IMG/VR virus record: IMGVR_UViG_3300010150_000042
Location: 1-42,526 of that record
Direction: 5' to 3' (one strand)
DNA from: a virus
Length of the DNA: 42,526 nucleotides
Below the pieces are notes generated by a model. It had not been told where the DNA came from, searched no databases, and saw only the letters and a program-made list of their open reading frames with translations. The translations under genes and the position numbers were made by a program. Of the stretch, positions 2 through 22,974 are shown piece after piece (within the stretch, counting starts at the first letter, position 1; each line of letters begins with the position of its first letter).

Positions 2-3000
2 ATCCAACCGAATTTGATTGGTGGAAACATAGATGAAGACCCGATCACCGCTCAGATAACAAAAATCAATGGTGGAACGACAGCAATATTAAGTTCTACA
101 ATATCAAAATTAAATGCTGGTGACGTTTACGTTCAACCAAAAATTTCTCCATTTGTCGGAAACCAACTTCCAGAAGTTTTGCAAGTAGACTTCCCGCTCT
201 TTAAGACTTTCTTTGAAAAATACTATCAGTTCTTAGAACAAACAAATACATCGGACAGTACCAATCACGGACCATTGAAGGTACTTCAAGATTTTCTTAG
301 CAAACTTGATGTTGACTTTAACGATGATGGTAGTCCAATCACCGATGACAATTTCCTAATAGAATTTTTCAAAGACTATGCTAAAGACTTTCCTCTGAAA
401 CAGAGCGCAAAGTTATCAAGAGTTATCAAAGATATCAATTCGTTCTATACTGCAAAGGGTAGTCCAGAAGCGATCAAATATCTATTCAAAGCTCTGTACA
501 ACGAAGATGTGGGTGTAGTAAACTCTGGTCAATTTATTCTTAGACCTTCATCAAACCAATTTACTCAAGACTATGTTATTAAAGTTTTTGAATCAGAATC
601 GAATCCAAACAACCCCTTGGAGTTGGAAGGCAGGAGAATCGACCTCCACTATTCTGTTTCCGAGGGGGCTTCTACACAGAATTTAATTAAAACTACTACA
701 GTAAAACGAGCTACAAAAATATCATACACCAACCCGCAAACATTTGAGTTGGTATTGGACTTACCTCCCAGTTTTACTCTGGTTGGGCCCGGCGTTGGAC
801 AAGATGGATATGACGATCAGTTGTTTGCTTATGTCTGCGGTAACGTTGGCACGATAACCGGCACTGGTACTGGTGGAATTTTTGAAAATCCCAGTTCCAG
901 CGTAGTCGATGGAACATACACAATTACCGAGTCCGATTACACATCTTATCTAGATGTTGAATATCAAAATAATGTTGAGTATCCAAAAGGGACGTATGTC
1001 ACGGCAAACGGTAAACTGTACGTTACTGTAAACGAAGGGACAACTGATTCGTCTGGTACTGGACCCACACATGAAAGTGGAGAAGTCTTGAACGGAACCT
1101 CAAAGTTTCGATTCCTATCTTTTGATGACCACAAGACAACATCAAGCACTGGCGCAGAATTTGAAGTAGTAATCCAAGGAAACTCCATAGATAGTGTCAC
1201 TGTTAATTCAGTTGGCAGTAATTATGTTCTTGGTGAAATTTTTGAAATACCAACAACGGTATTTGGGGGCGCTGGAACGCCTCCCGTAAAGTTTAAAGTT
1301 GGCACAATTACTTCTGGTAAGATAGACCACGTTCTAATTACTGATGGTGGTACTGGATTTAGTGCAAATCCTGGCGTGACGATTAAACCAAACCCAGCTG
1401 ATACTATCTTATCCGATGCAGCCATTTCAACAAGAATAACTGATGGTGTTGTCACTTCTACCTCGTTCATCTCAAACGCTAGAGGGATTGGATATAACAA
1501 CCCACCAGAACTCAAAATAAACGTTGCTAATCTGTTTTCTTATATCACATTAGAAGGTGAAGAAGAATTAAAGGCTTTTCCTACTAGAGTTTTAAATGGT
1601 TCTACTTTCAATACAATATCTCCATCATCTTCTACTACGAATGGTGGTTTTAATATTGGTGATACTTTCAAAGTATCGGAAACGGGATCAACTCTTGGCC
1701 AGTATGCTATAGATTACTTCTTAGAAGACTACACGATTAGTGGCGCCACTAATAATGGATATATCAAAGTTACTGCTTTAAGTGACAACGGATACCCAAG
1801 TGAATTTGAAGTAATTGCTGTTGGCGCTGGATACTACAGAGCTGACTTCAAATTTGATATTGTTTCTGACTCAGATCAAACTTGTACAATCGACGTAACC
1901 ACTGGATATAATGCGCTTCTCGCTGGTGTGTTTAAAGACGCCGGAAGTTTCTTGTCAGATGCAAACAAAGTATTTGATAACAGAATTTACCAACACTTCT
2001 CATATGAAATTGAGAGTGAAAGACCTCAGGCCGAATGGGATGGGTATGTCAAAAGAGCTGCTCACCCAATTGGATTTGGTGTCTTTGGAAACTTGCAGAT
2101 TAAACAAGATGTTGATTTGTCCTCAAACTTTGTTGTTGAGACTGATGTCTACATGTTCTTCAAATATCCAGAAATTGAAGAGATATTGATTTCGGATGAT
2201 GACTTTGCGAAAGATATGCACAAACCCTCGATTTCGGATTCGATATTCCCAGGCGATGGTCTGTCAACCAGACAAAATATCGGAGTGGTGGTCAACAAAT
2301 TTGATGTTACTCAGGGCAAAACCGATTCCTTTGAATTGTCAGATGAGTTTGGGCCCTATACACTGCAAGGTACGGAAGTACAAAACGTCTACGCTACCGA
2401 GGATGGAACTATCTTGGGAGCTCCATACTTCTTTGTCCACGGGGATAGGGAAGATGATTACATAGAAAGATTTGCGAATGGTGATTACTTCTTAGAAGAC
2501 TATGTAGAACAAGGAAACCCATTCAAAGATATTGAGATGGTGCTTGACTCCACTACTACTGGCGGATATGCTACCGACTATTTCTTAGAAGATTATGCAT
2601 TGGTTTTAGATGCAGACCCAGAGAGAGGAACAACACTTGTCTTTATAGATGATGCTGTTTCTAGTTTAAGTGTTCACATCGAAGTTGCAGGTGGCGTTTC
2701 TCCTGTAGATGGATTATATGCTACTTCAGATGGTACACTTACCGGAGACCCATACTTCCTCCAAAATCCAGATTCTGCCGACGATTATGTGCGCCGAGTA
2801 ATTCCGAGTGGAGACGAAATAACTTTAGACGATTCGAGTATTACAGTCGCCTTCATTTTCTTCAGAACTTCTCCGACAGACTTTGACGAAGAATCTGTAA
2901 CTATAGATGACACGGCAGTGCCAGAATTGAATAGGGTTCTTGCAGAAGATATCTTGTTTGCTGATGCGTTTGATCGATTTGAGATAACTACAGAACAGTC

Positions 3001-5581: not shown

Positions 5582-8500
5582 ATGGCAATCAATTTAAATG
5601 TATCTCCATACTATGATGACTTTGATGCAAATAAAAAGTTTAATCGTGTGGTCTTCAAACCCGGCGTTGCCGTGCAGGCTCGCGAACTTACTCAAATGCA
5701 GGATTACTTTTATGAAACCATAAAAGACTTTGCAGAACATTTGTTTGTTGATGGAGCCGCGGTCAGTGGATGTGAAGGAAGTATCAATCTTCTGGAATAC
5801 ATAAAAATATCTGACGTTGATAATGCGGGAGTTACTGTTTCAAACGACTCTCTAGAATCATATACTGGAGACGCGGTAATTGGCAGCGTAACTGGAATTA
5901 GGGCAAATATTACGGCGGTCAAGTCTGGGTTGTCCACCAATGTCACAGCAAAGAAGATTCTTTACTTAGATTATAAAGTAGGTAATACCGATGGCGCCGG
6001 CGACAACACCAACAAAAGATTTGATGCTGGTGAGACTCTTACTGTAGTATCCGACGATTCCGATAGAAACGGCGATACGTTTGTTGTAGACACTAATACA
6101 AACTTTGATAGTTTTACAGAAAATTTTTATGGACTGGCAATGGATTTTGTTATTCCAGAAGGCGTTTTGTTTATTCAAGGTAAGTTTGTAAAACATGAAC
6201 GACAAATTATTAGACTTGATGATTACAGTGCTCGAGTAAATTATTTTATTGGTGTAATTCTCAAAGAAGAAATTGTCACCTCAGATTCAGATGGGACTTT
6301 GCTAGACCCAGCGACAGGAGCTTTTAACTACAATGCCCCAGGCGCGGATCGAACAAAGATTACAACCGTCATTGAGAAGGTTCCTTTTGGTGCAGAGTTT
6401 GCAAACAATACCTATTATGACTTAGGCCAACATGTTTCCTTTGATGATAAACTGTATGAAGTTACAACAGCTGGTACTACTGGAGCTCTTGATGAGTCAA
6501 ACCCAGGCCCAGTACACACATCCGGTTCACAAACTTTCGGCAGTGCGACTTTTACTTTCTTCCCATTCCCAGAAGACTTTACCGCTGTGTACAAGGTGCA
6601 AGACGGTGCCATTGTCAGGAAACTCAATCCAGAGTTGAAGGAGTATTCTAGACTTGGTGTAACTCTTGCTGAAAGAACATACGAAGAGTCGGGCAACTAT
6701 GTAGTTGAACCGTTCACTCTGGAGTTGTTAGAACACCTTAAAACAGTCAAGGGGTCTACATTCAATACTTCAGTTAATACCACTTATGCGTCAAATCAGT
6801 TTGTAAACCATAACGGCAATCTGTATTATTCTTCTAACACCGGGCCGGCCGAAGCAGCTGCTGGAGCGCCTCCGGTTCACACTAGTGGCACTGTAACTTC
6901 TGGTGAAGTAAAATTTACCTATGCGGGAGACTCGTACAGATTTGATAATAGTGGTGTATATCTCTCAAATGATCCTATCAACCCAGGCGATCCAAATGCT
7001 TTGGTTGCTAAGGTCTCGCCAGGCGTTGCATATGTAGATGGATACCGAAGAGACTTTGGTGCTGGTGAAGCAAATACATATTTAAAAGTTAGAAAAGGTG
7101 TCGCCACAGAAACAAAAGAAGGACTAGATACTAACCTCGGATATGGAAACTATTTTGAGTGTAGAGAAGTTTGTGGCGATTGGAGTATGGAAGCGGGCGA
7201 TACGATTGGCATCTATACCAACCAGACAGTTTCCGGTGGTTCATTTGCCGTCGGTTCCCAGTACCAAATCGTTACAGCGGGTACTACCGACTTTACGCTG
7301 ATCGGTGCCGCTGACTCTGCTGTAGGAACTATATTCACCGCTTCGGGCGCTGGTACTGGATCGGGTACTGCTGCTCTGCTTTCTGGTGCAGTCACTGACG
7401 GTACATTCTCTTCAACTGCTGCACCAGCTACATCTGACAAAATTGGCCAGTGCCGAGTCAGAAGTATCAAACTGTTAAATGGAACACCAGGCGATGCCGC
7501 TTCTAGATACAGAGTATTTGTCTATGATGTAAAAATTACTAGAGGTAATATAACAAATGCAAGAACCTTATATTACAATGGACTTTCTGGTGGTTCTTTT
7601 GCAAACATCATTTTAGAAGCCGGAATAGACATTGACGGTGATCCCATTGTCTTTGCTGATTTAAAGGGCCGATCACACAACAAGATGGTATTCCGATGTC
7701 CTTGGAGATCAACGAAGACTCTTTATGCTGAAGCAGGAAATACATTAGACACCCAGTATTACTACACGGAGGAGTTTTCGGGACTCAGTACCGACAATGC
7801 TGGCACGTTTCAAGTGTCCATTGCTGGTCTAGGTTCTGAATTTAGTTTCCCATATTCTGCCACTCCCACTGCTGCTCAGATGACCGATTCGTTCTATCTT
7901 GTAAACAGAGGGAATTCGGTTACTATAAGCGGTGTAGTATATCCGCCTGGCGCAATTATTCCCATGACCCCCTCTATGGTTACTGCTTTTGCTTTTGACC
8001 AAATGGATTTTGACCTCACATCAGGTGGTGGTGTAGGAGCTATGAGCGGTGCTGCTGACTTATATTTACAAGTCAAACTGAAAGTAACTGATGCCGTTCC
8101 GGTCACAAAGAACTTAAACACTTCACGGTATGTTAAAATCCGCACAGTAGATAATGCTGGTGGTGCATCTGGTCCTTGGAGTCTTGGTGTTTGTGATGTC
8201 AATGAAATTGAAGCTATCTATGTTGCAGACGGTGAAAGACAAGGCGGACACTTTGATGACGCTGACAATCCAGTAAACTTAAAAGATAGTTTTAACTTGG
8301 ACAATGGTCAACGTGACAATCTTTATACTCACGCCAGTATTTCTAAGAAGGGTACAGAAGCAATTGACTTATCAAATAAGTTGATTACGGTCAAATTTAG
8401 TCACTTTGACCCAGACTACGATAGTTCCAACGGAACATACTTTGCTTTTGATTCTTATCCAGTTGACGATACTGGTGCTACTGGTATATACTCACACGAA

Positions 8501-11500
8501 GTACCGTACTACAGATCAGAACTTTTCGGCACAATGGATTTGAGAGACTGTATTGACTTCAGACCATATGTTAAAAATACTGCCGCTAGTTCTCTAACAT
8601 TGGCTGGTGCTACACAGAACCCCTATAGGACCGAAGACTTGGATTTGCCTAATAATGGTATTCAATATCCGATTCCAGCTACTGCTTTCACCACTGACGT
8701 AACATATTACCTACCTAGAATCGACAAAGTTTTCATTGACAAGTTTGGTAGAATGACGATCAAAGAGGGTCTATCAGAAGCTAAGGCTAAACCCCCTGTA
8801 TTGAAACAGGGTATGCAAATAGCACAAATTTACATTCCTCCGTTCCCGTCTATTTCCAGAAAAGTTGCGATAAAATATGGCAAACTGGAACAGTCTGCAA
8901 CCTTTGAACTACAAGGACAAACTAAACGATATACCATGGCTGACATTGGTAATATCGCAAAAAGAATTGATAGGTTGGAGTATTATCTTGCATTATCTCT
9001 GATGGAAATGAGTGCAAAGGATACACAATTACTAGACGCTAACGGGAACGACAGATTTAAGAACGGTATCTATGTCAACGCATTTGATAGTGACCTTCTT
9101 AGTGATCTTGCTGACCCCAGCTATAACTGCGCTTACGACTCTATAGCAAAACTAGCAGAACCAAACTACGAAGAAAGTGATGTTGATCTAGTTATTAACC
9201 CAAATCACCAGAGTTCTACTTGGAAATTTATGGGGCAACACATAACAAGACCTTACGTTAAAGAGGGATTGTTTGAAAATCGTTTTGCTACTAAGACTAG
9301 AAATTGTGTTGGAGAATTGTTGTTCAACTATACTGGTAAGATGGAGTTGTTCCCAAGATCGGACAACTTTGCTTCTACTAGTACAATGGAACCGATGAAC
9401 CTCACTTCCAACAACCAAGCAGCTGTACAAGCTGCAGCTGCTTCTGTGAATGCCTCCAAGAATGTTATTGGTACTTCTAGTGCTATCACTACCGGCGCAG
9501 TTGCTGGAGTGCCTGGTTCTTTTTCTGGCAAAAAAACTACGACAACAACCAACTTTGAACCAGGCGGTGATGGTGCCTTTAAAATGGAGAGTGAGGAAGT
9601 ATTTAACCCTCCTCTGCCAGCAGGATCAACCACCCCAAACAACCCAAATGGATGGTTCGAGAAAGTTGAAGACGGCAAAAAAACAACAACAACAACTGGT
9701 AACATCGATGTTAGTGGTTCCTTTGATACTACAACCACAACTTCAAGTATCGTGCAGTCAACAACAGAATACCTATTAACTGCTTCTGCTAAATCAGCTG
9801 GTTCATTGGAGTTTAATATAGGTGATGTAGTAAGAGATGTTTCTCTCTTGCCGTTCATGCGAGCCAAAGCAATTGGAGTCAGATGTTCTGGATTGAAACC
9901 CAAAACTAAACTGTATTGTTTCTTTGATGACGTAAACGTAACAGAATTCTGTGAGTCAATGCGTGTCAGATCAACCTCTGCCGGGCCTGGATTTGATGAT
10001 TCTATTGGTCTGGCTTGGCCCACTAGTAGACAGACAAGTATTAGAGAAGTTCTTTCTAGCGGATGCACTTTCAATTCGGGAGAAACGATTGATGGTGTTG
10101 TCCATTTCCCCGATGTAATTAAGACCGATGACGCGGGTGATTGTGCATTTACTCTTAATCTGCCAGGCGATAGATTCCCTGTTGGTACTAGAAGAATCTT
10201 TGTTGTAGATGACCCTACGAATAGAAACAACTTTATTACTACGATGGCAGAGAACCAATATTCCGCATTTGGTATGCACCAAACAACGCAGGAAGTAAGT
10301 TTGACTGCCGAGTTATATCAACTAGAGTATGGTAGTACTACGGGTGGTACGAGTAGTGCTGTTGTTGGTACTACAGTAACTGGTGTTGAAAATAGTGCAG
10401 CTACAATAAGTGTCGATATCACAGACGTAGAGACCACGATTGATGTAACCAACCCAGTATATGTATTCCACCCGCCAATTAGGTTTGGCGATCCTATTGC
10501 ACAGTCGTTCGCGGTAGATCAGTCACCGACAGAAGTATTCTTATCTAGAGTTAAGGTTTGGTTCAGATCAAGACCGGGCGAAAAGGACGGAATTTCCAAT
10601 CTTGATACCAGCCCAATCAACACTGGTACTGGTAGAAAACTAACGATGGAAATCAGACAGTGTAATTCAGCTGGTTATCCAACAAATGTTGTGATTGGCA
10701 GATCAACACTGCCTTACAACGCGATCAAAACTACACCCGACCTGTCTGGTGGAAACGCTACAAACTTTGACTTCAGAGATGAGTTTTCTACGAACTTTGA
10801 CTTTGGTAAGGGTCCAGATTTAAGCTCGTTCAGAACTGGGAATGTTGCTGACTTTAGAATTGGTCTTTCACAAGAAAGTCTCCAAAAACCAGTTGTTCTT
10901 GATCCAACCAAAGAATATGCTTTTATTATAATTCCAGAGAATAATGATCCGAATTATGACATCTGGTGTTCTAAGTTGGGTGAGACTAAAATTGGTACTG
11001 CAGCAGATAGAGTTACCGCAGAAGAAGCTTTCTCTGGAATTCTATTCACATCTGCTAATAACAGAACGTGGACTCCACATCAACAGGAAGATTTGAAGTT
11101 TGTTATGTATGCATGGACATTCCCCACTGGAACTGGTGAGGTTGAATTCGTCAACGAACACGCAGAATTTGTAAGTGCAAAAGACTTTATTGGTGGCAAA
11201 CCTGACAAGAACGAGCCAGGAACTTGGTATAGTTTCAAGAACTCGATTGGCAACGCAGGAACTGGATACAGTGTCGGTGATGTAATCAATATAGACTCTT
11301 CCACGAAAACTAATGTACCGAGTGGAATTAAGTTTGAGGTACTAACTGTAGGTGGCGGTGGCGAAGTTCTGACGATTAAAGCACTCCAATATTCTGATGG
11401 TTCTAACGCCAGTTACAGAAATTGGCCTTACACTTGCGGTGTAGACAGTATTGGCCAAGGCAATTTCGAGTTTATCAACGGCGATCTCAGCACCCTGCTT

Positions 11501-13015
11501 CCTGTGCCTTGTCAATCAGACGTTGTTTTTGCACAAGGATCTACCACTGGTAGTGGTGTTGGATTTACTGTCAATATGCGTCCCAAGAAGATGTTAATGA
11601 AAAAAGTGGATAACGTGTTGGATAGATACGACTTCATTCTCCCAGACGCACCCTTTGAAAGAGAGGTTGATGTCACTGCAATCCTAAACGGAGATACTTC
11701 ACTGTTACCTCAAGTTGATGATTTGTGGTTCCAAAGAAAGATTGGGATAAAATCATTCTATATCAAAGAGGCTGGTCTCAAAAAGATTATTAATGTCACT
11801 AGAACAAATATGACGCTCAGGGATTATGACTCTACTGATACTCAAGTTTTCCGAGCGGTTACAAATTCGTCCGGTGTCAACCAAGCAGGTAGTACATTCA
11901 CGCCGATGATTCCGACAATGTTGATGCCCACTAATCAAGAATGTGCTGTATATTCTCTCAGTGGAGAATTGGGATTCGCCGTAGGTGGAAACATCATGGA
12001 GAAAAAGAGTTACCGACACAGGGTTCAACTCAGTAATGCTGTATCGACAGTATCACCAATATTAAATCCATCTAGAACTTCTGCTGAAGTTAGAGAGTAC
12101 TTGGTGAACAACGATTATGCAAATGAAGAGAATGCTGCTGGTGGTAATGCTAGGGCTAGATTTATTAGTAAGATTGTTAGACTGGCAGACGGACAAGAAG
12201 CAGAAGATATTCATTTGTCTGTTGGACAATTTACTCCGCCTGGATCAGAAGTTAAGGTATATTTTAGGGGAGTAACCGCTCACGACGATATTGATATTAG
12301 GAGAGAGAAGAACTGGGTTGAGATGGTCTTTGGTTCAAATAACCGAAATGGTTCTCTAAACAACAACTCATTCGTAGATATGGAATATAAACTACCTCAG
12401 ACTTCACTGTCCGGTGGTAAGTATTTTTATGACACCAGTAGACTCAACCCAACCGCTCTAGTTTTGAATGGGGGTAGCGGGTATAGTTCTTTGGACGAGG
12501 CTACCGTCTTTGTTGATGGAGGCACAAGTACTGATATTGTGTTCAGAACCATAAATAGTGGAGTCCTACAGGGAGATTTTGATGTATTGAACCCAGGCGC
12601 CAACTTTAATGGGGTCGCGCCGACTATCAAGATTGGATTGGATCATCAGGGTAGTGAAACATATCCAGTAAATACTGTTGTTGCTGATACCGATACTACT
12701 GCTGGGGTAGAAAGAATCTACAGATGTATAACGCCTGGTACAACCAATGCATTGTCTGAGAACACAAACCCTGGCCACGCACTTGATGGTTCTGCTCTCA
12801 ATGACACCGCATCAGACGGGACTTGCGTTTGGCAGTATATTGGTGATAGGGCAACATTCACCCCCAGTAGTATTCAACTAGAAACTGTAACACACACCGG
12901 ATTTAAATATTTCCAGTGTAAGATTGTATTACTTGCATCGAACACTTCTGTGATACCAAGACTAAAACAACTGAGAATGATTGCCTTGCAAGCTGGTGTA
13001 CAGGATAGTGCATAA
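5582..13015 (+). CDS. Giant DUF4815-type virion structural protein (2477 aa)
   Basis: Probable baseplate or tail-fibre attachment protein. The N-terminus (YYDDFDANKKFNRVVFKPG, then VQARELTQMQ) is the hallmark of the DUF4815 family, found at the tail ends of many marine myoviruses. The middle carries three Y..G..V-type modules (two at nt 6400-6580 and 6740-6930, one near the C-terminus at 12660-12860), a 'TAGTTDFTLIGAADS.VGT.FTA' module (nt 7250-7370) and two Thr runs following GKK (nt 9525-9550, 9672-9700). It also has GxGY beta repeats at nt 11250-11390 and 12445-12640. It occupies the T4 gp9/gp10 region, but I cannot align it to those proteins. It is much larger than any T4 baseplate gene and looks built by domain accretion. 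Confidence 0.82.
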   Translation: MAINLNVSPYYDDFDANKKFNRVVFKPGVAVQARELTQMQDYFYETIKDFAEHLFVDGAAVSGCEGSINLLEYIKISDVDNAGVTVSNDSLESYTGDAVIGSVTGIRANITAVKSGLSTNVTAKKILYLDYKVGNTDGAGDNTNKRFDAGETLTVVSDDSDRNGDTFVVDTNTNFDSFTENFYGLAMDFVIPEGVLFIQGKFVKHERQIIRLDDYSARVNYFIGVILKEEIVTSDSDGTLLDPATGAFNYNAPGADRTKITTVIEKVPFGAEFANNTYYDLGQHVSFDDKLYEVTTAGTTGALDESNPGPVHTSGSQTFGSATFTFFPFPEDFTAVYKVQDGAIVRKLNPELKEYSRLGVTLAERTYEESGNYVVEPFTLELLEHLKTVKGSTFNTSVNTTYASNQFVNHNGNLYYSSNTGPAEAAAGAPPVHTSGTVTSGEVKFTYAGDSYRFDNSGVYLSNDPINPGDPNALVAKVSPGVAYVDGYRRDFGAGEANTYLKVRKGVATETKEGLDTNLGYGNYFECREVCGDWSMEAGDTIGIYTNQTVSGGSFAVGSQYQIVTAGTTDFTLIGAADSAVGTIFTASGAGTGSGTAALLSGAVTDGTFSSTAAPATSDKIGQCRVRSIKLLNGTPGDAASRYRVFVYDVKITRGNITNARTLYYNGLSGGSFANIILEAGIDIDGDPIVFADLKGRSHNKMVFRCPWRSTKTLYAEAGNTLDTQYYYTEEFSGLSTDNAGTFQVSIAGLGSEFSFPYSATPTAAQMTDSFYLVNRGNSVTISGVVYPPGAIIPMTPSMVTAFAFDQMDFDLTSGGGVGAMSGAADLYLQVKLKVTDAVPVTKNLNTSRYVKIRTVDNAGGASGPWSLGVCDVNEIEAIYVADGERQGGHFDDADNPVNLKDSFNLDNGQRDNLYTHASISKKGTEAIDLSNKLITVKFSHFDPDYDSSNGTYFAFDSYPVDDTGATGIYSHEVPYYRSELFGTMDLRDCIDFRPYVKNTAASSLTLAGATQNPYRTEDLDLPNNGIQYPIPATAFTTDVTYYLPRIDKVFIDKFGRMTIKEGLSEAKAKPPVLKQGMQIAQIYIPPFPSISRKVAIKYGKLEQSATFELQGQTKRYTMADIGNIAKRIDRLEYYLALSLMEMSAKDTQLLDANGNDRFKNGIYVNAFDSDLLSDLADPSYNCAYDSIAKLAEPNYEESDVDLVINPNHQSSTWKFMGQHITRPYVKEGLFENRFATKTRNCVGELLFNYTGKMELFPRSDNFASTSTMEPMNLTSNNQAAVQAAAASVNASKNVIGTSSAITTGAVAGVPGSFSGKKTTTTTNFEPGGDGAFKMESEEVFNPPLPAGSTTPNNPNGWFEKVEDGKKTTTTTGNIDVSGSFDTTTTTSSIVQSTTEYLLTASAKSAGSLEFNIGDVVRDVSLLPFMRAKAIGVRCSGLKPKTKLYCFFDDVNVTEFCESMRVRSTSAGPGFDDSIGLAWPTSRQTSIREVLSSGCTFNSGETIDGVVHFPDVIKTDDAGDCAFTLNLPGDRFPVGTRRIFVVDDPTNRNNFITTMAENQYSAFGMHQTTQEVSLTAELYQLEYGSTTGGTSSAVVGTTVTGVENSAATISVDITDVETTIDVTNPVYVFHPPIRFGDPIAQSFAVDQSPTEVFLSRVKVWFRSRPGEKDGISNLDTSPINTGTGRKLTMEIRQCNSAGYPTNVVIGRSTLPYNAIKTTPDLSGGNATNFDFRDEFSTNFDFGKGPDLSSFRTGNVADFRIGLSQESLQKPVVLDPTKEYAFIIIPENNDPNYDIWCSKLGETKIGTAADRVTAEEAFSGILFTSANNRTWTPHQQEDLKFVMYAWTFPTGTGEVEFVNEHAEFVSAKDFIGGKPDKNEPGTWYSFKNSIGNAGTGYSVGDVINIDSSTKTNVPSGIKFEVLTVGGGGEVLTIKALQYSDGSNASYRNWPYTCGVDSIGQGNFEFINGDLSTLLPVPCQSDVVFAQGSTTGSGVGFTVNMRPKKMLMKKVDNVLDRYDFILPDAPFEREVDVTAILNGDTSLLPQVDDLWFQRKIGIKSFYIKEAGLKKIINVTRTNMTLRDYDSTDTQVFRAVTNSSGVNQAGSTFTPMIPTMLMPTNQECAVYSLSGELGFAVGGNIMEKKSYRHRVQLSNAVSTVSPILNPSRTSAEVREYLVNNDYANEENAAGGNARARFISKIVRLADGQEAEDIHLSVGQFTPPGSEVKVYFRGVTAHDDIDIRREKNWVEMVFGSNNRNGSLNNNSFVDMEYKLPQTSLSGGKYFYDTSRLNPTALVLNGGSGYSSLDEATVFVDGGTSTDIVFRTINSGVLQGDFDVLNPGANFNGVAPTIKIGLDHQGSETYPVNTVVADTDTTAGVERIYRCITPGTTNALSENTNPGHALDGSALNDTASDGTCVWQYIGDRATFTPSSIQLETVTHTGFKYFQCKIVLLASNTSVIPRLKQLRMIALQAGVQDSA

Positions 13016-14118: not shown

Positions 14119-15093
14119 ATGGCTGGTCCAATAACACTTGAAGCTGGAAGCTATCCAGTAGCCGCTGATGGGTTACAGGGATTTCGTGAACTGACAGCAA
14201 CTCAAATTAGGGAACAGATCGCTGGTGTTATTACCCAAAAGTTTGCTACTGATACGGATGGGTCTGGTACTGCTGAACTGAATGTTGTCACTGGAGGTTC
14301 TGCTGGTTCTGATGAGATTGGTACTTTCTCAGACAGAGCAAGAACGGAATCCGTGGGAACTCACCCCGCAGCTGGCACTCTCACTACAACTACATTTCGT
14401 TTCAATCAACCCGTTGCGAGTGTGAGTGAGTCCGGTCAAATCAGACCATTGCGATGGACAAACACATCCGTAGATGAAATGACGGACGGAGAAATTGATT
14501 CCGATATTTTAGACGAAGTTATCCAGGCAATGGCAACGGAATCTGCTAACACAGTAGGACAGTATAAAATCGATACTTCTACCCCTTCTGGTGGAACGTG
14601 GACCGCTCGGTATACTATCCCAGATACGCAAACCGATGGCACTACCATAAACTATTATCTTTGGCAAAAAACTGCGCCGACAACGGATGCAGGTTCTGAT
14701 ACCAATATGCTTCTCCAAACTGATGTAGATGGTAACATTGATGAGATGGCAGACGCTGATGTAGAAACTCTAGTTCCTGCTTTCAGAAACAGAATCATTG
14801 CTTCTGGTGTTGGTACATATTTACTACAAACTGGTTCTCCGACTGCTACTGGGACTTGGGCTCAGATGGGTGGAACCATGACCGACCAAGTTAAAGACAT
14901 TGTTTCAGAAAATTATTCTGGTGAATATGCTGGTTCCTATGTTGGATACTATGACAGAATATTCAACGGATTCTTGGAAGGTGCCTATGCTGGTACATAC
15001 TCAGGAACTTACTACGGTGAGTATGCCGGTAACACTATTCAAACTTCTAGTTCTACTCAGGAAACGAAACAACTCTTTATAAGAACTGCTTAA
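14119..15093 (+). CDS. Appendage protein with YxG-rich tail (324 aa)
   Basis: Probable virion appendage; family not recognised by name. An N-terminal region (LTATQIREQIAGVITQKFA) is followed by a duplicated domain. Copy one runs from DEMTDGEIDSDILDEVIQ to PSGGTW and copy two from DEMADADVETLVPAFRNR to TATGTW. Residues 265-305 are a tyrosine/glycine repeat (EYAGSYVGYY, then AYAGTYSGTYYGEYAG) that should form short strands. A clear AAGGAG ribosome site precedes the ATG. It is the last gene before the accessory island. Confidence 0.65.
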   Translation: MAGPITLEAGSYPVAADGLQGFRELTATQIREQIAGVITQKFATDTDGSGTAELNVVTGGSAGSDEIGTFSDRARTESVGTHPAAGTLTTTTFRFNQPVASVSESGQIRPLRWTNTSVDEMTDGEIDSDILDEVIQAMATESANTVGQYKIDTSTPSGGTWTARYTIPDTQTDGTTINYYLWQKTAPTTDAGSDTNMLLQTDVDGNIDEMADADVETLVPAFRNRIIASGVGTYLLQTGSPTATGTWAQMGGTMTDQVKDIVSENYSGEYAGSYVGYYDRIFNGFLEGAYAGTYSGTYYGEYAGNTIQTSSSTQETKQLFIRTA

Positions 15094-15097
15094 CCAT

Positions 15098-15127
15098 TTG
15101 ACATATATACTAGATGAGTGTTATAAT
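15098..15127 (+). promoter_or_regulatory. Consensus sigma70-type promoter
   Basis: TTGACA at 15098-15103 and TATAAT at 15122-15127, separated by 18 bases. Both boxes are perfect bacterial consensus. It stands at the head of the accessory island and differs from the TATAAATA elements elsewhere, so the downstream genes may be transcribed early by the host RNA polymerase. A 7-bp inverted repeat (ATGAGTG/CACTCAT) straddles the -10 box. Confidence 0.65.
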
Positions 15128-15147
15128 GCACTCATAGTATTTTTTAT
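15114..15147 (+). terminator. Weak hairpin with T-rich tail
   Basis: ATGAGTG (15114-15120) pairs with CACTCAT (15129-15135) around an 8-base loop, and is followed by AGTATTTTTTAT. This could end transcription of the upstream fibre genes. The stem is short and the same DNA overlaps the promoter, so an operator role is an alternative. Confidence 0.35.
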
Positions 15148-15162
15148 AGTATGAGGAATATC

Positions 15163-15600
15163 ATGGAACCCCAACCAAAATATCGCAACCCCCGCTGGAT
15201 CAACAAAGAGAACCGCAGAGTTTTCTGTGAGATTCTTATTGGTGACGTTTACCGCCCCTGTAACATCAACGTTGGAAATCCAGAAGAAGGACTAGTCAAC
15301 AAAGACTTTGATGCGATCATGGAAGAGTTTGGAGAAGAGGTGTTGAATGAGAACACCAAACTTCACAAAGAAGGTGTTGACGAAGAACATAAGAAAAGAG
15401 AAGAGATGCAGGAGGTTCATGTAAACAGGGTGAAACAAGAAACTCTGTTTGAAATGAAACTGCAAGCATTTGAGTCCGAGTACATCAAAAACTCTGACAA
15501 CAAAGAATTCAAAAAACTTCTTAGAAAATCAAAGTCACTCATCGAAGTACAAGCAATCGCGACTATTCTTATTCAAGAAGAACTCAATAAGTCAGAATGA
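15163..15600 (+). CDS. Hypothetical protein, possibly tail-associated (145 aa)
   Basis: Function not recognised. I chose the ATG at 15163 over the in-frame ATG at 15151 because TGAGGA lies six bases before it. The first 45 residues (NPRWINKENRRVFCEI, then the region of VYRPCNINVGNPEEG) loosely recall short phage tail-associated proteins with a 'NP.W.N....I.CEI' start. Residues 60-145 are highly charged and helical, likely coiled coil. It is the first gene after the sigma70-like promoter and overlaps the next start by four bases, so it is probably co-transcribed with the glycosyltransferase. Confidence 0.6.
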   Translation: MEPQPKYRNPRWINKENRRVFCEILIGDVYRPCNINVGNPEEGLVNKDFDAIMEEFGEEVLNENTKLHKEGVDEEHKKREEMQEVHVNRVKQETLFEMKLQAFESEYIKNSDNKEFKKLLRKSKSLIEVQAIATILIQEELNKSE

Positions 15601-16325
15601 ACGGATATCTATATGTAGCGACAGTCAGATATGAATATTATCTGGCTGCGAAAGAGTCTGCCCTGTCCCTTCTAGATTTTCACCCAGAAGCTAATATTTG
15701 TTTATTTACTCTACCAGAATGGGTAGAAGAAGAAGATCATGAAATATTTGATCGCATTGTCACGGACATACCCAATCACACTAGAACAAAACTATGGGCT
15801 CTATCAAGAACACCATATGATCTGACACTCTATGTAGACTGCGACACATGGGTTCAGAGTGAAGACATCCAAACTATATTTAATTATATTGAAGACAATG
15901 ATATAATCTTCACTCGCAATCGACCCTACAATTCAAAGATCACTCAACTAAATGAAGAAGAAGAGATGATCTACCATTGTGGCATTTTTCTGTACAGGAA
16001 GAATATGCAGATAGTTGAGTTGATGGACGATTGGTATGAATACTATTGCAAACAGATCAACAGAGATCACGATATGAGTCCGTACCCAGAAAAGGCCAGA
16101 CCTTGGGATACGTTTACCATGTGGTACTTACTAAATAAAACCAAACATAAAGATACCATAAAGATAGGAGATTTTCCATCACCAGATGCGAGGTGGAATT
16201 TTTGTATGGGGCAAAGGCCAGAAGAGTTAGAAGGTCAAGATGTAATCATCACTCACTACAGCTTAGGAAATGTCACACTAAATGAGAAGCATACCAATAA
16301 ATCAAGAGCTGCACAAGTTTCTTGA
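15597..16325 (+). CDS. GT-A-type glycosyltransferase (242 aa)
   Basis: Predicted nucleotide-sugar-dependent glycosyltransferase, cytoplasmic. An N-terminal Rossmann-like strand (GYLYVATVRYEYYLAAKESA) is followed by the metal-binding DxD motif in YVDCDTWV (Asp81, Asp83), typical of GT-A folds related to GT8 and similar families. A later 'YHCGIFLYRKN' strand fits the acceptor-side sheet of that fold. It starts on the ATGA overlap with the previous gene. Its sequence differs from the four minus-strand glycosyltransferases in the island (no WGxKY motif). Sugar and acceptor are unknown. It is not a T4 alpha- or beta-glucosyltransferase of DNA, which have a GT-B fold and no DxD. Confidence 0.75.
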   Translation: MNGYLYVATVRYEYYLAAKESALSLLDFHPEANICLFTLPEWVEEEDHEIFDRIVTDIPNHTRTKLWALSRTPYDLTLYVDCDTWVQSEDIQTIFNYIEDNDIIFTRNRPYNSKITQLNEEEEMIYHCGIFLYRKNMQIVELMDDWYEYYCKQINRDHDMSPYPEKARPWDTFTMWYLLNKTKHKDTIKIGDFPSPDARWNFCMGQRPEELEGQDVIITHYSLGNVTLNEKHTNKSRAAQVS

Positions 16326-16890
16326 CGATTATATTTCTTGGTTCAATAAGAAAGATTTTAAACTCCCAACCGAAGAAAACCACAAGGACGGTTTGGGGAT
16401 GGATTACTATTGTTCCAAGGAATATCTAGACACCGTAATAGAAAAAGGCAAAGATCACAGAGGTCCGCCAGAGTTTGGTATTACATGCAGTTTGCAAAGA
16501 AATACAAATGTACCAGAAGATGCTAGATTAAAGTCACTGGAGTTTTGTTCTTCCCTATCTTCTTATCTGGGAGCAAAGTATACTGCGGTACATGTATACT
16601 ATCCACCAAACGGATTCATGTCGTGGCACTGTAATTGGGATTGTCCCGGCTACAATATTCTATTATCTCATAGTGACGGTGGTGGATTCTTCAGATACCT
16701 AGAAGATGGTGAGATCAAAAACACCCAAGACCCAGCTGGATGGTCTGTTAAGGTGGGATATTATGGTAGTAAAGATGAGACACCATATTGGCACTGCGCG
16801 GGGTCAACTAGTCCTAGACAAACTATTGGATTTGTTGTTCCAGATAAAAATATGTGGGAGATGATGGTAGAGGATATTAGTGCAGAATGA
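16282..16890 (+). CDS. 2OG-Fe(II) oxygenase-like protein (202 aa)
   Basis: Probable double-stranded beta-helix protein of the 2-oxoglutarate/iron oxygenase type. The strand HVYYPPNGFMSWHCNWDCPG gives His116 with Asn118 and Asp120. A distal 'PYWHCAGSTSPRQTIGFVV' supplies His171 and Arg179, the expected second iron ligand and 2OG-binding arginine. The usual HxD is HxN here, with an Asp two residues further on, so metal binding could be altered or lost. The start overlaps the upstream gene by 44 bases, which is long, and the ribosome site is weak. A role in modifying a sugar, peptide or nucleotide in the island pathway is inference. Confidence 0.6.
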   Translation: MRSIPINQELHKFLDDYISWFNKKDFKLPTEENHKDGLGMDYYCSKEYLDTVIEKGKDHRGPPEFGITCSLQRNTNVPEDARLKSLEFCSSLSSYLGAKYTAVHVYYPPNGFMSWHCNWDCPGYNILLSHSDGGGFFRYLEDGEIKNTQDPAGWSVKVGYYGSKDETPYWHCAGSTSPRQTIGFVVPDKNMWEMMVEDISAE

Positions 16891-17645
16891 GTTTGATGCA
16901 CAAAGAAGGCGATCAACTCTGGCCAAAAGTTAAAACCGTTGACGATGGACGGGTTGTTGGTTATGAATCTAACAGCATCACCGAATATTTGTTATCCGAC
17001 AATCCAAATTTTTCTAGCTACAATGAACACTATGGTCACCGAATATCATATGACTTCAATTTTGCTGGACACAGAACACCAAAAACTTTTGATAAAACAA
17101 ATCACTTCTTAGTTGTAGGTGGTTCTCAGACCTTTGGTATTGGAGTTCCAGAAGATAAGTGCTACCCATCAATGATTGCAAAAAGTTTGGGTATGGACTA
17201 TTACAACATGTCTTTGCCTGGTGTGTCGCATGACATAAACATTTCAAATCTATTATGGTATCTATCCACATACTCTCCCAGATTTATATTGTGGGAGTGG
17301 TTATTCGATTCAAGAAATTATATAATTCTTCCGCATATGGATGATATGGTTCTCCCTCTTATTTCAACCCATGTACAAAAATATGAAGAGGTGTTTGATC
17401 TGCGTGGACTGTCGGAATTTTTTCTGTCTTGCAATGACATTGGATATAATAAATCTCGCAGATTGCTGCATGAGATGGCATTAAAAAATATTTCTAATAT
17501 GCATCAAGTCTATCAATTTGATTTCAACAAGGACTTTGAAGTAAATTCCGTTGACGTTGGCAGAGAAGGATTCCACTACGGAATTGATACTCACCAATCA
17601 ATTGCAGACAGTTTAATCAAAAGAATCCTTCCTTCTGGCCGATAA
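16887..17645 (+). CDS. SGNH/GDSL hydrolase-like protein (252 aa)
   Basis: Predicted SGNH-fold esterase or acyl hydrolase. VVGGSQTFGIGV places a nucleophile serine at Ser80 in a GxSxTxG context (block I). NMSLPGVSHD (Gly112) resembles block II. The C-terminal GREGFHYGIDTHQSIADSL resembles block V, where Glu227 stands in for the usual Asp, with His230 or His236 as catalytic histidine. No signal peptide is visible. Proteins of this fold in glycan clusters often add or remove acetyl groups; that role is inferred. The ATG overlaps the previous stop, and the 3' end overlaps the convergent methyltransferase-like gene by 29 bases. Confidence 0.65.
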   Translation: MSLMHKEGDQLWPKVKTVDDGRVVGYESNSITEYLLSDNPNFSSYNEHYGHRISYDFNFAGHRTPKTFDKTNHFLVVGGSQTFGIGVPEDKCYPSMIAKSLGMDYYNMSLPGVSHDINISNLLWYLSTYSPRFILWEWLFDSRNYIILPHMDDMVLPLISTHVQKYEEVFDLRGLSEFFLSCNDIGYNKSRRLLHEMALKNISNMHQVYQFDFNKDFEVNSVDVGREGFHYGIDTHQSIADSLIKRILPSGR

Positions 17646-18300
17646 TCATAAACCTATCGTATTCTTTTTTTCCGTCCCAAGAGTGATAAGTTTGTTTGAT
17701 GGTGCCCTCAAATTCTGCATCAGGCAATCCGATCTGATCTTTTAACTCTTCAATAGAACCCACACAGTTTATACCATACATCTCTTCAACCACGTTAGAG
17801 TTTTGCATGGCGAATACTGCATTGGGATTCTTTGTAACTAGTTCTTCTAGGGGATACATTTGTTCTGTGTGAATACAGATCACAACATCTACTTCAATCT
17901 TGTTGAGGTTTTCAAACTCAAATGGGATATCCAAATTCCAGTGTCGAATGTTGACAAACTTTTCTTGGGCGTAGTGTTTGTGAAAAATCTTTGACAACTC
18001 AATCGACTCTTCATCCAAGTCAACCATGTGAATCTGTGCTACGTCTAGGTTCTCACAGATCAACGGGACCATAGGCATTCCTAACCAAGAATTTAGGATC
18101 AGTACTCTGAGACTCCCAGGCTTTGCATAGTATTCATCAAGATACTTTTGTAGTTCCTCGACCAACCAAACACTTGATTCCACGTTGTTCTCTGACAAAG
18201 ACTGTCTGAAGTCTGCCAGTTTGTGTGGCATCTTATGTTCTATGATACTTAGGGCCTCGCCCCAGTGTTTGAAATTATTTAAGAAATTAAAATTTAACAT
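17617..18300 (-). CDS. Class I methyltransferase-like protein (227 aa)
   Basis: Possible S-adenosylmethionine-dependent methyltransferase. Strand one is SLRVLILNSWLGMPMV, a degenerate form of the usual 'VLDxGxGxG' SAM loop. Strand two is IHMVDLDEESIELS, with the acidic residues that normally hold the ribose. Then come 'NIRHWNLDIPF' and strand four 'VDVVICIHTEQMYP'. The weak glycine loop means activity is uncertain. I chose the ATG at 18300; the upstream TTG at 18324 would lengthen the overlap with the preceding gene. It is the last gene of the minus-strand operon. Confidence 0.6.
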   Translation of the reverse strand: MLNFNFLNNFKHWGEALSIIEHKMPHKLADFRQSLSENNVESSVWLVEELQKYLDEYYAKPGSLRVLILNSWLGMPMVPLICENLDVAQIHMVDLDEESIELSKIFHKHYAQEKFVNIRHWNLDIPFEFENLNKIEVDVVICIHTEQMYPLEELVTKNPNAVFAMQNSNVVEEMYGINCVGSIEELKDQIGLPDAEFEGTIKQTYHSWDGKKEYDRFMIIGQKEGFF

Positions 18301-18961
18301 CTTCACTTTTTCCCATTGAGTCAAATATACAAATGTATGGTAGTTCTCGGTAGGTATGTTTTTCTATGTCGTGGGGAAAAACAAATCCTTGGTTGAAACT
18401 ATACACCCATCCAAGGGGGAACAGTTTTGTTTTGATTACTCTTCTGTTGTAGAAGAAGTTATCAAGACCACGATAATACCACAGTATTTGTTCTTTATAC
18501 TTGTTGAAGTATTCGGTTAGTTCTCTAGTATTTAGACTGTCATTCCAACGCAACACGGATGAGTTTAAATCCGTAAACTTGTGAGGAATGTGTCTAGTGT
18601 CTTTGTATTGTGTTTCAAGATCGTGCCACCAAGTCTTTACCATACACAAACAATCTTCTGGGTCATACTCAGCTATCACATCAACATTTTTTTGGATGAT
18701 GGTGTCAATGTCAAAAAACATCTTCTCGCCTTTTTGGGTCACGATGCTGTCGTCGAACAGGTACATCTTGTTCCACCACTTTTGTAGTTTGTTGCCGCCC
18801 GGCAGAGTCAAAGGCTTAATCGATGGGTCCAATCCTTTGGGGTCTTCTGTTAGACAGAAAAAATCAAAGTCACATGTTAGATATTTCAAACACTGTTCAT
18901 AGATACTGTTGACATGTTGGTGATTATATTTGTCACCCCACTTTACGGTATAGATGTTCAT
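18287..18961 (-). CDS. Glycosyltransferase paralogue (224 aa)
   Basis: Predicted GT-A glycosyltransferase. It opens with IYTVKWGDKYNHQHVNSIY, the 'KWGxKY...VN' signature shared in this operon. The DxD is in FFDIDTIIQ (Asp84, Asp86). A late 'GWVYSFNQG' strand also recurs in its neighbours. I chose the ATG at 18961 over the TTG at 18967. The start overlaps the stop of the upstream gene by four bases and the stop overlaps the downstream methyltransferase-like gene by 14, so the operon is tightly coupled. Donor and acceptor are unknown. Confidence 0.75.
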   Translation of the reverse strand: MNIYTVKWGDKYNHQHVNSIYEQCLKYLTCDFDFFCLTEDPKGLDPSIKPLTLPGGNKLQKWWNKMYLFDDSIVTQKGEKMFFDIDTIIQKNVDVIAEYDPEDCLCMVKTWWHDLETQYKDTRHIPHKFTDLNSSVLRWNDSLNTRELTEYFNKYKEQILWYYRGLDNFFYNRRVIKTKLFPLGWVYSFNQGFVFPHDIEKHTYRELPYICIFDSMGKSEDVKF

Positions 18962-19770
18962 CGCCAATGCTCCAGTAATTTAGGATCAGCAAGTTCATCT
19001 TGTTTCGTGTGACCTCTACTCTTATCCTCAAAGGGCAACAGATCAACGTTGAACACGCAGATGATGCAGTTTGGTCTGTAGATACCAACGTTCAAATCGT
19101 CTTCATCCCATGACCGACCACGGTTGTATGAGTATGCCATCCAAGAAGGAAAGTGATCCCACAAGTCTTCACCGTATCTACCCCACTTCCATGAATGATA
19201 GTTATCGGTTCCGTCAGTGTATGTGAACCAAATCTTCTTTTGATTTTTTAGCACATCTTCCCAGATACACTCACACTGATCGTCTGACCACACTTGACAC
19301 GATCCGTTTGTATATGCACCATGAGCCAACTTAAATTGTCTAGTCTCCATTGGTCTGGGGTCTTGCCACCAAGACTTCATCTTGGTGGGTCTTTCCATGT
19401 TATATGTTATAACAGGTGTAAGATCGCGTTGAATGATAACATCCAAGTCAAAAAAAACAAAACGTCCAGTAGGCTTATCAGGAGCAAAATTATGGGTATT
19501 AAAAACAAAAGTTTTAGGACGATCCCAACAGCGGGCCATACCATACTTAAAATTTTCACTGCCAAACCAATACTTAGGATGAATATCAGGAATGTCAGGA
19601 AAAGGGATAACATTAACATCATCATCAAATCCTTCAGAGTTATCGGTGTAGCAATAAAAGTGAAACTCAAACTTGTCTGGAGTATTTCTTTTTGCCATCT
19701 CTTTCAATCTGTTGACGAAGTGTGGACCGTATTTGGTTCCCCACTTACAACATACATAATTTACTCTCAC
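18958..19770 (-). CDS. Glycosyltransferase paralogue (270 aa)
   Basis: Predicted GT-A glycosyltransferase. Signature start VNYVCCKWGTKYGPHFVN, DxD in FFDLDVIIQ (Asp108, Asp110), then a 'KSWWQDPRP' segment and 'WMAYSYNRGRSW' near residue 215. It shares 'HP.YWFG.ENF/Y' and 'DGTDNY' with the N-terminal domain of the 835-residue neighbour, so those two are the closest pair and probably arose by tandem duplication. The start is GTG at 19770 in a GTGA overlap with the upstream stop, a sign of translational coupling. Confidence 0.78.
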   Translation of the reverse strand: MRVNYVCCKWGTKYGPHFVNRLKEMAKRNTPDKFEFHFYCYTDNSEGFDDDVNVIPFPDIPDIHPKYWFGSENFKYGMARCWDRPKTFVFNTHNFAPDKPTGRFVFFDLDVIIQRDLTPVITYNMERPTKMKSWWQDPRPMETRQFKLAHGAYTNGSCQVWSDDQCECIWEDVLKNQKKIWFTYTDGTDNYHSWKWGRYGEDLWDHFPSWMAYSYNRGRSWDEDDLNVGIYRPNCIICVFNVDLLPFEDKSRGHTKQDELADPKLLEHWR

Positions 19771-22274
19771 TTACACCCCCCACATCTTTTGGTGCATATG
19801 TTTAACGGTTTTCGTTTTAGGTGTTGACTTATATTTTCAAAGTCGTGATTGAATATTACTTCACCAACAGAGAACTTACTTAGATCATTATACCGTCTAT
19901 TGTAGGTATAGTCAAGGGGATGGTGCGGCAATAGTTTATTTTCTTCTACGTCTCTAGAAATAAAGGCGCAGGGAAACGCATTTCCAGCTGAGTTGACATA
20001 GAAGTAGCCAGACTTTCTTGAGTCACACCACACGGGGTCTCTCTCTTTCATTTTTCTTTTGATCGGTCTTATCTCATCTGACTTCTTGAACATTTTCAAA
20101 GTCTCTAGGTTCACGGGGATGTCACTTGCTATTATCTCTGTTACCCCGTTTTCTGATTCTGCTTTCTGTGGCTGCGGCACATATTGTAAGTTGTCAATGT
20201 AGATTGGTTTGATAAAATTTTTGTTATATGTCTGTACGGTGATGGTAACATTTTTTTCTTTGAAGTACTTACAGATGTCCTCTAGGTGTTGCGACTTTGT
20301 GGGGTCAGAAGTTTCGCACATAAACGTGACCCAGTTGACTTTGAATTTGTCAAATATATTCTTGATCGATGCCGGGCTGTGTTCTTTGCCGTTTACAAAT
20401 AGGTCATTGAATTCATCTCCGGTGTCGTTCTGCGTTGTACTCAATTGAATCAGAGCTCCATCTGGAGCACCGTCATCATACAGTCCGTGATATAGGTCAC
20501 TGAATTGTTCCCCATGCATTTGAAAGTATTTTATCAGAGTGTCGTTGTCCGATACATTGTCTTGATTTAGAATCGACAACAACTCTTGTTTCGGCATGAT
20601 ATTATACAGACGTTCAAATACTTTTTCATAGTCTTGTTTATAGAATAGTTCCTTTAGAGTATTAACATAATATTTTTTATACAATGCCTGTATGTCCGAC
20701 TCCGATGAATCCCAAAATATTCTTTGTAACCCATGTTGTTTGATGTTTTCCATAACATCGTGTTTGATTTTAGGAAGTGTATTATTCTTCCAAAGTCTTT
20801 TGTAAAGAGCAAAACATTGTAGATTGCTGACGTTCCAAAAGTATCTCACTGGCCCACAATCTTTTGCCTCTTTATATACTACTCGTTGCATCTTGTTGAT
20901 ATATCTTTGTTTGTAAAAATCATAGATATCATCTGCATCTTTATTCCAATATAGAGATTGGTCACCTTCTTGGAGTAGTCTGTCTTCTGGGAAGTCTGCA
21001 CAAAATTTCAAGTGCATTGATATCATGTCACCAGATTCAAATAAATCCTTGATGACTCCTTTGTGGTGAGGTTCGATCATCCTGATAAACTTCATGTCTG
21101 AGACTTCACGTTCTAGTTCTGGAACAAGTTTTTTGACTTCTTCCACGGGTTTGGCAAAGTATTCTTTTAGTTCTGGAAAGTCTTTGATTAGTTTCTCAGA
21201 CAAAGATTGTAAATCATTTTGGTCAACCAGACTTTTGATTGACGATACCACATCTTGATTCATGTAGTTTTTTTCTAGTGAGTCATCTGATACGGAATCA
21301 AATCCCAACCACTCACGCAGAGTTTCAAACTTACTCGAATACTTTTCCCAATCATCTTTCAATTGGGGCAGGTCTTTCTCAAACTTTGACTGCAATGTAT
21401 CGTAGTCTTTGTTCTTCAAAAGTTCTGATATTTTATCGGTGTGTTTGTTTTTGGTAAAAAATGTACTAGGAAATTTGGGCAACCAAAGTCTTTCAAACTC
21501 TGTCTTGCCGTGCCAGTGTATCAGAAGGTTATAGTCCTTCACATCATGCGGTTTAAAAAACTTTGTTCTCTTGGGTACAACTGGTGCTTCAAAGATACAA
21601 AACTTTGGTTCTTCCCTGTATAGATGCGGAGTAACATCATCTGGGTATTGTTGGCCGCGATTATAAGAATACGCCCACTCCGAGGGAAGGAAAGACCAGT
21701 ACCCATCCCCTACCACTTGGTGTTCTCTCCAAGGATAGTAATTGTCGGTTCCCTTCCAGAAGGTTTTGAATATCGTGTCCTTGTGTTTTAGGACATCATT
21801 GTAAATTTTTTCCCCTGCATCGTTACACCACAACATTACGCTGGAGTTATGCAGAGTGCCTCTTATGTCTTTGAAACGTCTATCATGCAACACTGAGGGA
21901 TTTTCCCAGTTTGAATACAACATGTGTGGTGTTGCAGAGAGTTCAAATATGTCATCGATGTTGTTTTGAATGACAACATCTAAATCAATATAACAGAACG
22001 GGCCCTTGGTACGCAACCAATGGTGAGAATTTAGTACTAGAAATTTTGATCTGTCCCAACAGTAGTTCTCTTTGCCGAACCAGTAGTCGGGATGCAGTGG
22101 GTCAACTCTGGGTATTGATCGAATGGTTATGCCTTTGTCAATACCATCTGGATCATCGGTGTAACATATAAACTTGTGCCGCTTGGTATAGTTCTGTTGA
22201 ACCATGTTGCGTAAATTGTTTACATATTCTGCCGAGTACTTATTTCCCCATTTCATGCAGAGAAAGTGCATCAT
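19767..22274 (-). CDS. Glycosyltransferase fused to degenerate radical-SAM/SPASM-like domain (835 aa)
   Basis: Three-part protein. Residues 1-270 are a GT-A glycosyltransferase: start FLCMKWGNKYSAEYVNNL, DxD in YIDLDVVIQ (Asp97, Asp99), 'WAYSYNRGQQ' near 215. Residues 290-600 are helical, with two repeat types: one like 'LVDQNDLQSLSEKLIKDFPE' and one like 'FWDSSESDIQALYKKYYVN'. Residues 609-835 look like a radical-SAM protein whose cluster cysteines are lost: IQLSTTQNDTGDEFND replaces the expected CxxxCxxC strand, followed by 'VTFMCETSDPTKSQHLEDI'. The end keeps a SPASM-like set of cysteines (Cys750, 769, 827, 831, 834; GNAFPCAF and ICTKRCGGCK), which could still bind an iron-sulfur cluster or zinc. 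The start is the first of two adjacent ATGs. The fusion has no T4 counterpart. Confidence 0.72.
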   Translation of the reverse strand: MMHFLCMKWGNKYSAEYVNNLRNMVQQNYTKRHKFICYTDDPDGIDKGITIRSIPRVDPLHPDYWFGKENYCWDRSKFLVLNSHHWLRTKGPFCYIDLDVVIQNNIDDIFELSATPHMLYSNWENPSVLHDRRFKDIRGTLHNSSVMLWCNDAGEKIYNDVLKHKDTIFKTFWKGTDNYYPWREHQVVGDGYWSFLPSEWAYSYNRGQQYPDDVTPHLYREEPKFCIFEAPVVPKRTKFFKPHDVKDYNLLIHWHGKTEFERLWLPKFPSTFFTKNKHTDKISELLKNKDYDTLQSKFEKDLPQLKDDWEKYSSKFETLREWLGFDSVSDDSLEKNYMNQDVVSSIKSLVDQNDLQSLSEKLIKDFPELKEYFAKPVEEVKKLVPELEREVSDMKFIRMIEPHHKGVIKDLFESGDMISMHLKFCADFPEDRLLQEGDQSLYWNKDADDIYDFYKQRYINKMQRVVYKEAKDCGPVRYFWNVSNLQCFALYKRLWKNNTLPKIKHDVMENIKQHGLQRIFWDSSESDIQALYKKYYVNTLKELFYKQDYEKVFERLYNIMPKQELLSILNQDNVSDNDTLIKYFQMHGEQFSDLYHGLYDDGAPDGALIQLSTTQNDTGDEFNDLFVNGKEHSPASIKNIFDKFKVNWVTFMCETSDPTKSQHLEDICKYFKEKNVTITVQTYNKNFIKPIYIDNLQYVPQPQKAESENGVTEIIASDIPVNLETLKMFKKSDEIRPIKRKMKERDPVWCDSRKSGYFYVNSAGNAFPCAFISRDVEENKLLPHHPLDYTYNRRYNDLSKFSVGEVIFNHDFENISQHLKRKPLNICTKRCGGCK

Positions 22275-22974
22275 AATATTTTTTTCTCAACTCATCTTTT
22301 GCAGTTAGACCATTCATAATCACGATTGGATATTCTGGTTTTATTTTATATCCTCTTGGGGATACGTCTGTGTCGTAATCTACTCCGGCTTGAAACGAGT
22401 ACATCAATCCCTTGGGAAATGTGTTGTCGAAGAGTTTTTCGTGGTATAAAAATCTATCGTCTCCACAGTATTTAGTCATAAAATATTGATCGTTATCTTC
22501 AAAGTAGTCGTAGATATATCTCGCGTCATTCCCGTTCCATGCCATCACGCTGGAATTCCACAATCCCAACCACTTATATGTCCAAGGTAGATCATCAGAA
22601 CCATCGTCAAAATGATACTTTTTTGGTTTGTTGTAGATTTTATTCTCACTGGTATCCCACGGAGCCTTCCAGTAACAATAACAAATTGTTGGTTTTGAAC
22701 AGTGGTCGAACAATTTGTCTAGACTACCCTGTATTATAACATCTAAGTCTAGGTAAAGGCAATCCCCTTGCCAATTATTTTTGAATATTTTTATCTTCTC
22801 CCAGTGTCCCTCTGGTTCTTCTATTCGGATTTGTTTTATATTTTTGTTAAGGTGTTTGCTGTTCTCGTCATCTACGATGCATATATGATTGTACTGTTTG
22901 GTTTTATCATAAATATAGTGTACGTCATCCGCACTATACTTTTCACCATAAAGAACCGTCACAACTGTTTTCAT
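22240..22974 (-). CDS. Glycosyltransferase paralogue (244 aa)
   Basis: Predicted GT-A glycosyltransferase and first gene of the minus-strand operon. It starts VVTVLYGEKYSADDVHYIY (the YGxKY form of the operon signature), has DxD in YLDLDVIIQ (Asp76, Asp78), a 'WNSSVMAWNG' strand near 140-150 that matches the 'NSSVMLW' of the 835-residue protein, and 'GLMYSFQAG' near 195. A purine-rich AGAAAGAGA lies a few bases before the ATG. The 3' end overlaps the next gene by 35 bases. I could not define a minus-strand promoter in the short gap upstream. Confidence 0.76.
   Translation of the reverse strand: MKTVVTVLYGEKYSADDVHYIYDKTKQYNHICIVDDENSKHLNKNIKQIRIEEPEGHWEKIKIFKNNWQGDCLYLDLDVIIQGSLDKLFDHCSKPTICYCYWKAPWDTSENKIYNKPKKYHFDDGSDDLPWTYKWLGLWNSSVMAWNGNDARYIYDYFEDNDQYFMTKYCGDDRFLYHEKLFDNTFPKGLMYSFQAGVDYDTDVSPRGYKIKPEYPIVIMNGLTAKDELRKKYYDALSLHEMGK

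Follow-up and report, generated by a model that had tools for sequence, protein, structure and literature searches.

A candidate fusion of terminator and promoter between two transcription units of marine T4-like phages

Why should a perfect sigma70 promoter stand among the virion genes of a T4-like phage, with a palindrome laid over its -10 box? The window studied here, that is the whole stretch of 42,526 nucleotides, is by its gene content a fragment of a T4-like myovirus: PHROGs matches include portal, sheath, terminase, baseplate wedge and head-maturation genes, and the portal has at most ~55% identity to named phages, the best being cyanomyoviruses and the Methylophilales phage Melnitz. 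A search of 50,697 phage records with the DNA between 13200 and 18400 gave no match. The promoter lies there on the plus strand, in a gap of 69 bases that runs from the stop of a 324-aa gene to 15163, where the next gene probably starts. Our preferred reading, which we hold to be fairly probable, is that in this marine T4-like phage the terminator of one transcription unit and the promoter of the next are fused here into one compact element.

Promoter, hairpin and T tract at the junction

The -35 box TTGACA (15098-15103) and the -10 box TATAAT (15122-15127) are separated by 18 nt and match the sigma70 consensus at 12/12 positions, the -10 box being extended by a preceding TGn. The earlier note had called this promoter fully consensus, and the counts bear it out: TTGACA-16..18-TATAAT occurs once in the window, against a mean of 0.03 expected from 100 dinucleotide shuffles. 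Judged by its consensus, it is a promoter of the ordinary early type. The inverted repeat that had been described as centred on the -10 box is also there. Its arms, ATGAGTGT at 15114-15121 and GCACTCAT at 15128-15135, enclose TATAAT, which doubles as the loop of a hairpin (15114-15135, plus strand) with an 8-bp stem containing one G-U pair. Outer TACT/AGTA pairs with an AG bulge extend this structure to 15108-15139, and a T6 tract, the putative terminator tail, follows at 15140-15145. The predicted RNA fold reaches -12.1 kcal/mol with a z of -4.1 over 15108-15145 (z -3.0 over 15100-15150), with only 3/8 G-C pairs in the stem, and an equally good stem around TATAAT is found in ~1% of random placements. 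A stable hairpin with a T tract directly after it is what defines an intrinsic terminator by sequence; Rfam gave no match in the window. The T4 late promoter box NATAAATA is not present at this site, where 15102-15109 reads instead CATATATA, an 8-mer that differs from it by one base and to which the late box of relatives, TATAAATA or CATAAATA, aligns.

In the fusion that we propose, RNA polymerase coming through the fibre-like gene would copy both arms, the RNA would fold into the hairpin, and transcription of this preceding gene would probably halt at the T6 tract. The sigma70 form of the host polymerase would also start at TTGACA-18-TATAAT, using a -10 box placed in the hairpin loop. The predicted start, at the 7th base after the -10 box, is 15134, inside the right arm. 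RNA begun near this position could not form the hairpin because the left arm would be missing, and the terminator would act on read-through while sparing the promoter's own RNA. In E. coli, the frd terminator/ampC attenuator is a single hairpin that ends the upstream operon beside the downstream promoter; there, the promoter precedes the hairpin, which is included in its transcript, whereas the start predicted in the window lies inside the hairpin. Folding predictions for relatives with both sigma70 boxes (class A below) are consistent with such an exemption: in 6/6 examples the predicted energy is -9 to -18 kcal/mol for read-through RNA and 0 for RNA begun at the promoter itself. Junctions with a late box lose part of the stem (from -17.2 to -4.1 in L049, from -13.9 to -8.0 in L061), the late +1 being assumed at the 6th base after the box; the T4 late start lies about one turn after the box (PMC2988020). 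A sigma70 fusion in P-SSM4 is a counter-example, in which the hairpin is retained (-10.8 to -10.3).

Genes on either side

The upstream gene (14119-15093, plus strand) found no match in family searches; from its place, its product is probably tail-fibre-like, and its transcript is the one that the hairpin would end. An ORF of 2477 aa lies at 5582-13015, between the baseplate and fibre-like genes. The downstream gene (15163-15600, plus strand) belongs to no known family and has GAGG at 15153-15156 before its likely start, the ORF tool placing the start at 15151. Its product gives an AlphaFold2 model of mean pLDDT 90. That it is a tail-fibre chaperone is only a guess made from the gene's place, because the protein matches no Pfam or PHROG family and structure searches returned nothing at E <= 0.001 in BFVD or PDB.

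The promoter had been taken to suggest an island that is expressed early or to a timetable of its own. Such timing is plausible, judging from the promoter type. The island itself is not supported, because most of its genes are syntenic in relatives. The downstream unit has three further plus-strand genes (15597-17645), one of them glycosyltransferase-like (a weak match, below cut-off) and the other two without assignment. Among the 69 sequences searched (65 loci, some sharing contigs, and four genomes), the two genes that follow the promoter gene are present in 67 (15597-16325) and 64 (16282-16890), which led us to reject a mobile island carrying its own promoter. The third, at 16887-17645, is present in only 8/69, varying within a block that is otherwise syntenic; it has a weak DUF6473 match. 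The minus-strand block at 17617-22974, five genes, some glycosyltransferase-like, set within the plus-strand virion region, is mostly syntenic in relatives too, and no obvious promoter of its own was seen.

The same junction in relatives

Protein searches for relatives of the downstream protein gave 18 loci and then 53, whose junctions fall into four classes. Class A (31 loci) has TTGACA together with TATAAT (25) or TACAAT (6) in the hairpin; class B (6 loci) retains TTGACA and has a strong hairpin with T7, the -10 box being gone; class C (12 loci) has TATAAATA immediately before the hairpin and no sigma70 boxes; class D (4 loci) is without hairpin. In A and B, except for L034/L035, the -35 box is overlapped by the 8-mer CATATATA or CATAAATA, which aligns with TATAAATA of C, and in three groups of relatives a T4-late box stands at this spot instead.

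We folded a fixed 52-base stretch of each junction, with 500 shuffles each and with L071 and L072, which have no ribosome-site motif, left out. The hairpin is the predicted fold in 18/18 distinct sequences of classes A to C and in 0/2 of those tested from class D. For eleven of the 18 hairpins, no more than 6 of 500 shuffles do as well; the other seven are individually weaker, and that of L041 is at chance level (214 of 500 shuffles match it). The arms change together, for example from ATGAGTGT/GCACTCAT to GTGGGTGT/ACACCCAC, and the conservation of the palindrome that the earlier note had asked about is found in the pairing and not in the arm sequences. Comparing own-arm with cross-arm pairing is partly circular, because the arms were picked for pairing, and the fixed-stretch folding is the fair test; formal covariation within one clade is weak, its single double change being reached in 258 of 500 shuffles, the A4 alignment having been left out of this work for gap misalignment. 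A T tract of at least 5 follows the stem in 7/18 distinct A-C sequences, the window's counted as L020. It is short or absent in part of class A (L032/33, L034/35, L044/45/51/57), and for this reason those hairpins are not classical intrinsic terminators. The distant relative C48C1 has a hairpin with a T-rich tail at the same gene junction. A terminator for the upstream unit was one of two roles suggested for the palindrome, and it is the one favoured by the hairpin with T6 directly behind a fibre-like gene, by the pairing kept in relatives and by the putative C48C1 terminator. In a protein tree of 30 rows, a well-supported clade holds both the class C rows L049 and L050 and 12 rows of class A, and at least two changes on the starred branches are needed to explain class A; the promoter type therefore switched more than once while the hairpin was kept.

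The hairpin could instead be mainly a 5'-leader structure of a late mRNA, protecting or regulating it, to which a sigma70 promoter was added later. The late-type box would be TATAAATA in class C and CATAAATA or CATATATA in A and B, and the addition would yield overlapping early and late promoters. Promoters of this kind are described for RB49 and S-PM2, with a proposed middle mode (PMC2984593), and there too the sigma70 -35 box overlaps a late-type 8-mer. Furthermore, the hairpin starts a few bases past the late-type 8-mer in classes A to C, and the NATAAATA motif is found in class C and, as an exact match, in L036-L043 and L066, whose CATAAATA conforms to it; the window differs from those promoters in having CATATATA and a hairpin. 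However, L034 and L035 carry the hairpin without any late-type box, and hairpins are not general after late boxes: none of the eight TATAAATA boxes of the window is followed by a fold below -3.7 kcal/mol. Nor is CATATATA clearly enriched before genes (4/17, against a permutation mean of 1.0 and a maximum of 5). We consider this leader reading unlikely.

Alternatively, promoter and terminator may both have been squeezed into the 69-base gap, their nesting gaining nothing. Related genomes are indeed ~95-96% coding by their ORF masks. This explanation is compatible with the fusion that we favour and denies only selection for nesting; the switching of promoter class while the hairpin stays speaks mildly against pure accident, and we give it a rather small chance of being the whole story. 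Finally, a phage or host repressor that binds the palindrome as an operator and delays the promoter would account for a dyad centred on the -10 box, but we abandoned this as the main reading and find it highly improbable, since the arm sequences differ in relatives while their pairing persists, which fits an RNA hairpin better, and since the hairpin persists without the sigma70 -10 box (class B) or with a late box in its stead (class C).

Promoters and terminators across the phage group

All other promoters of this DNA had been described as T4-type. This is broadly true of the window, which has TATAAATA eight times on the plus strand and 0 times on the minus strand, but it does not extend to the phage group. 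Perfect TTGACA-16..18-TATAAT is found in 12/13 named T4-like records (68 sites versus 4 for the reversed control), T4 itself having 0; among related contigs, with spacers of 15-20, there are sites in 8/9, with a total of 39 versus 0 in the control, 18 of them on the 165-kb contig G005. By these counts perfect sigma70 promoters are ordinary features of this group, and the window shows only one because it covers mostly virion genes. T4-like phages are described as transcribing early genes with unmodified host polymerase and late genes through NATAAATA, and the near-consensus sigma70 promoters of cyanomyoviruses are proposed to be read by the unmodified host enzyme (PMC2984593). The early sigma70-type promoters of Syn9, S-PM2, P-SSM4, Melnitz and C48C1 are likewise near-consensus TTGACA-16..18-TATAAT; unlike them, the window's has a fibre-like gene before it and the neighbouring gene after it, and its -10 box lies in a hairpin loop. 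Among 53 sigma70-like sites in four related genomes, a strong hairpin sits on the -10 box in two, both at this same junction, with a hairpin score of 10.5 versus at most 8.0 at the other 51.

We also counted overlaps of promoters with terminators more generally, in 16 T4-like genomes (12 named, 4 from IMG/VR), whose gaps between ORFs hold 194 terminator-like hairpins; leaving out G010, which is closely related to G011, gives 15 genomes, T4 included, and 188 hairpins. Sigma70 boxes overlap 11/188 of these on the same strand; the opposite strand has one such overlap and reversed motifs give none, and in T4 the count is 0/23. Among the forms are a -35 box inside the terminator loop, as in S-SM2, S-PM2, P-RSM1 and S-SZBM1, and a promoter just before the hairpin with the predicted start in its left arm. 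In S-PM2, Melnitz, G010 and G011, the hairpin contains a late box whose predicted start falls in the right arm. These cases resemble the window in geometry alone, and their boxes and genes differ. Overlaps of late boxes with terminators in the 15 genomes are not significant (5 same-strand versus 3 opposite), whereas late-box starts predicted inside a hairpin number 9 versus 1, G010 included. In all viral contigs, a late box falls in terminator loops in 46 stretches versus 22 for the opposite-strand box; we claim no general enrichment, the numbers of distinct hairpins being similar after merging near copies.

Tight packing can explain these overlaps as such, because a terminator is in any case followed by a promoter of the same direction. 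It is a tentative proposal, and one that we would not bet on, that a "self-exempting terminator" is in general use among marine T4-like phages: transcription would start inside the hairpin, read-through RNA would be stopped while RNA begun there could not fold, and the promoter, sigma70 or late, would be an exchangeable module. If this were so, a promoter swapped on a kept hairpin would set the timing of the next unit with insulation retained. Phrase searches of open PMC papers found no description of a promoter within or overlapping a terminator in phages.

Other combinations of these elements were seen as well. At 71927-71990 of G011 and 45618-45679 of G010, a strong terminator precedes TTGACATTTGTTATAAATAGCAGTATAAT, in which the spacer of a sigma70 promoter contains a late box, giving an overlapping early/late promoter. 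CATAAATA lies in the stem and loop of a terminator hairpin in L140, L158 and 19 further contigs, and at G011 18253 and G010 100065; these hairpins, one of several late-box-in-terminator families, directly precede a gene starting MAKIMDG or MAEIMDG. In L138 and nine further contigs, the GGGGTACTATAAATATAGTATACCCC hairpin, a late box in a terminator-like hairpin with T5, lies before a gene starting MELFGFE.

As far as sequence evidence goes, the terminator-promoter fusion at this junction is real, conserved and compact, and a single short piece of DNA may serve to close one message and to open another. If our reading is true, annotators of marine T4-like phages should bear in mind that a promoter call and a terminator call may both be correct where they overlap. 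A packed phage genome would then end one message and start the next within ~50 bases, and the timing of expression could switch, from sigma70 to late, at a boundary that is itself kept.
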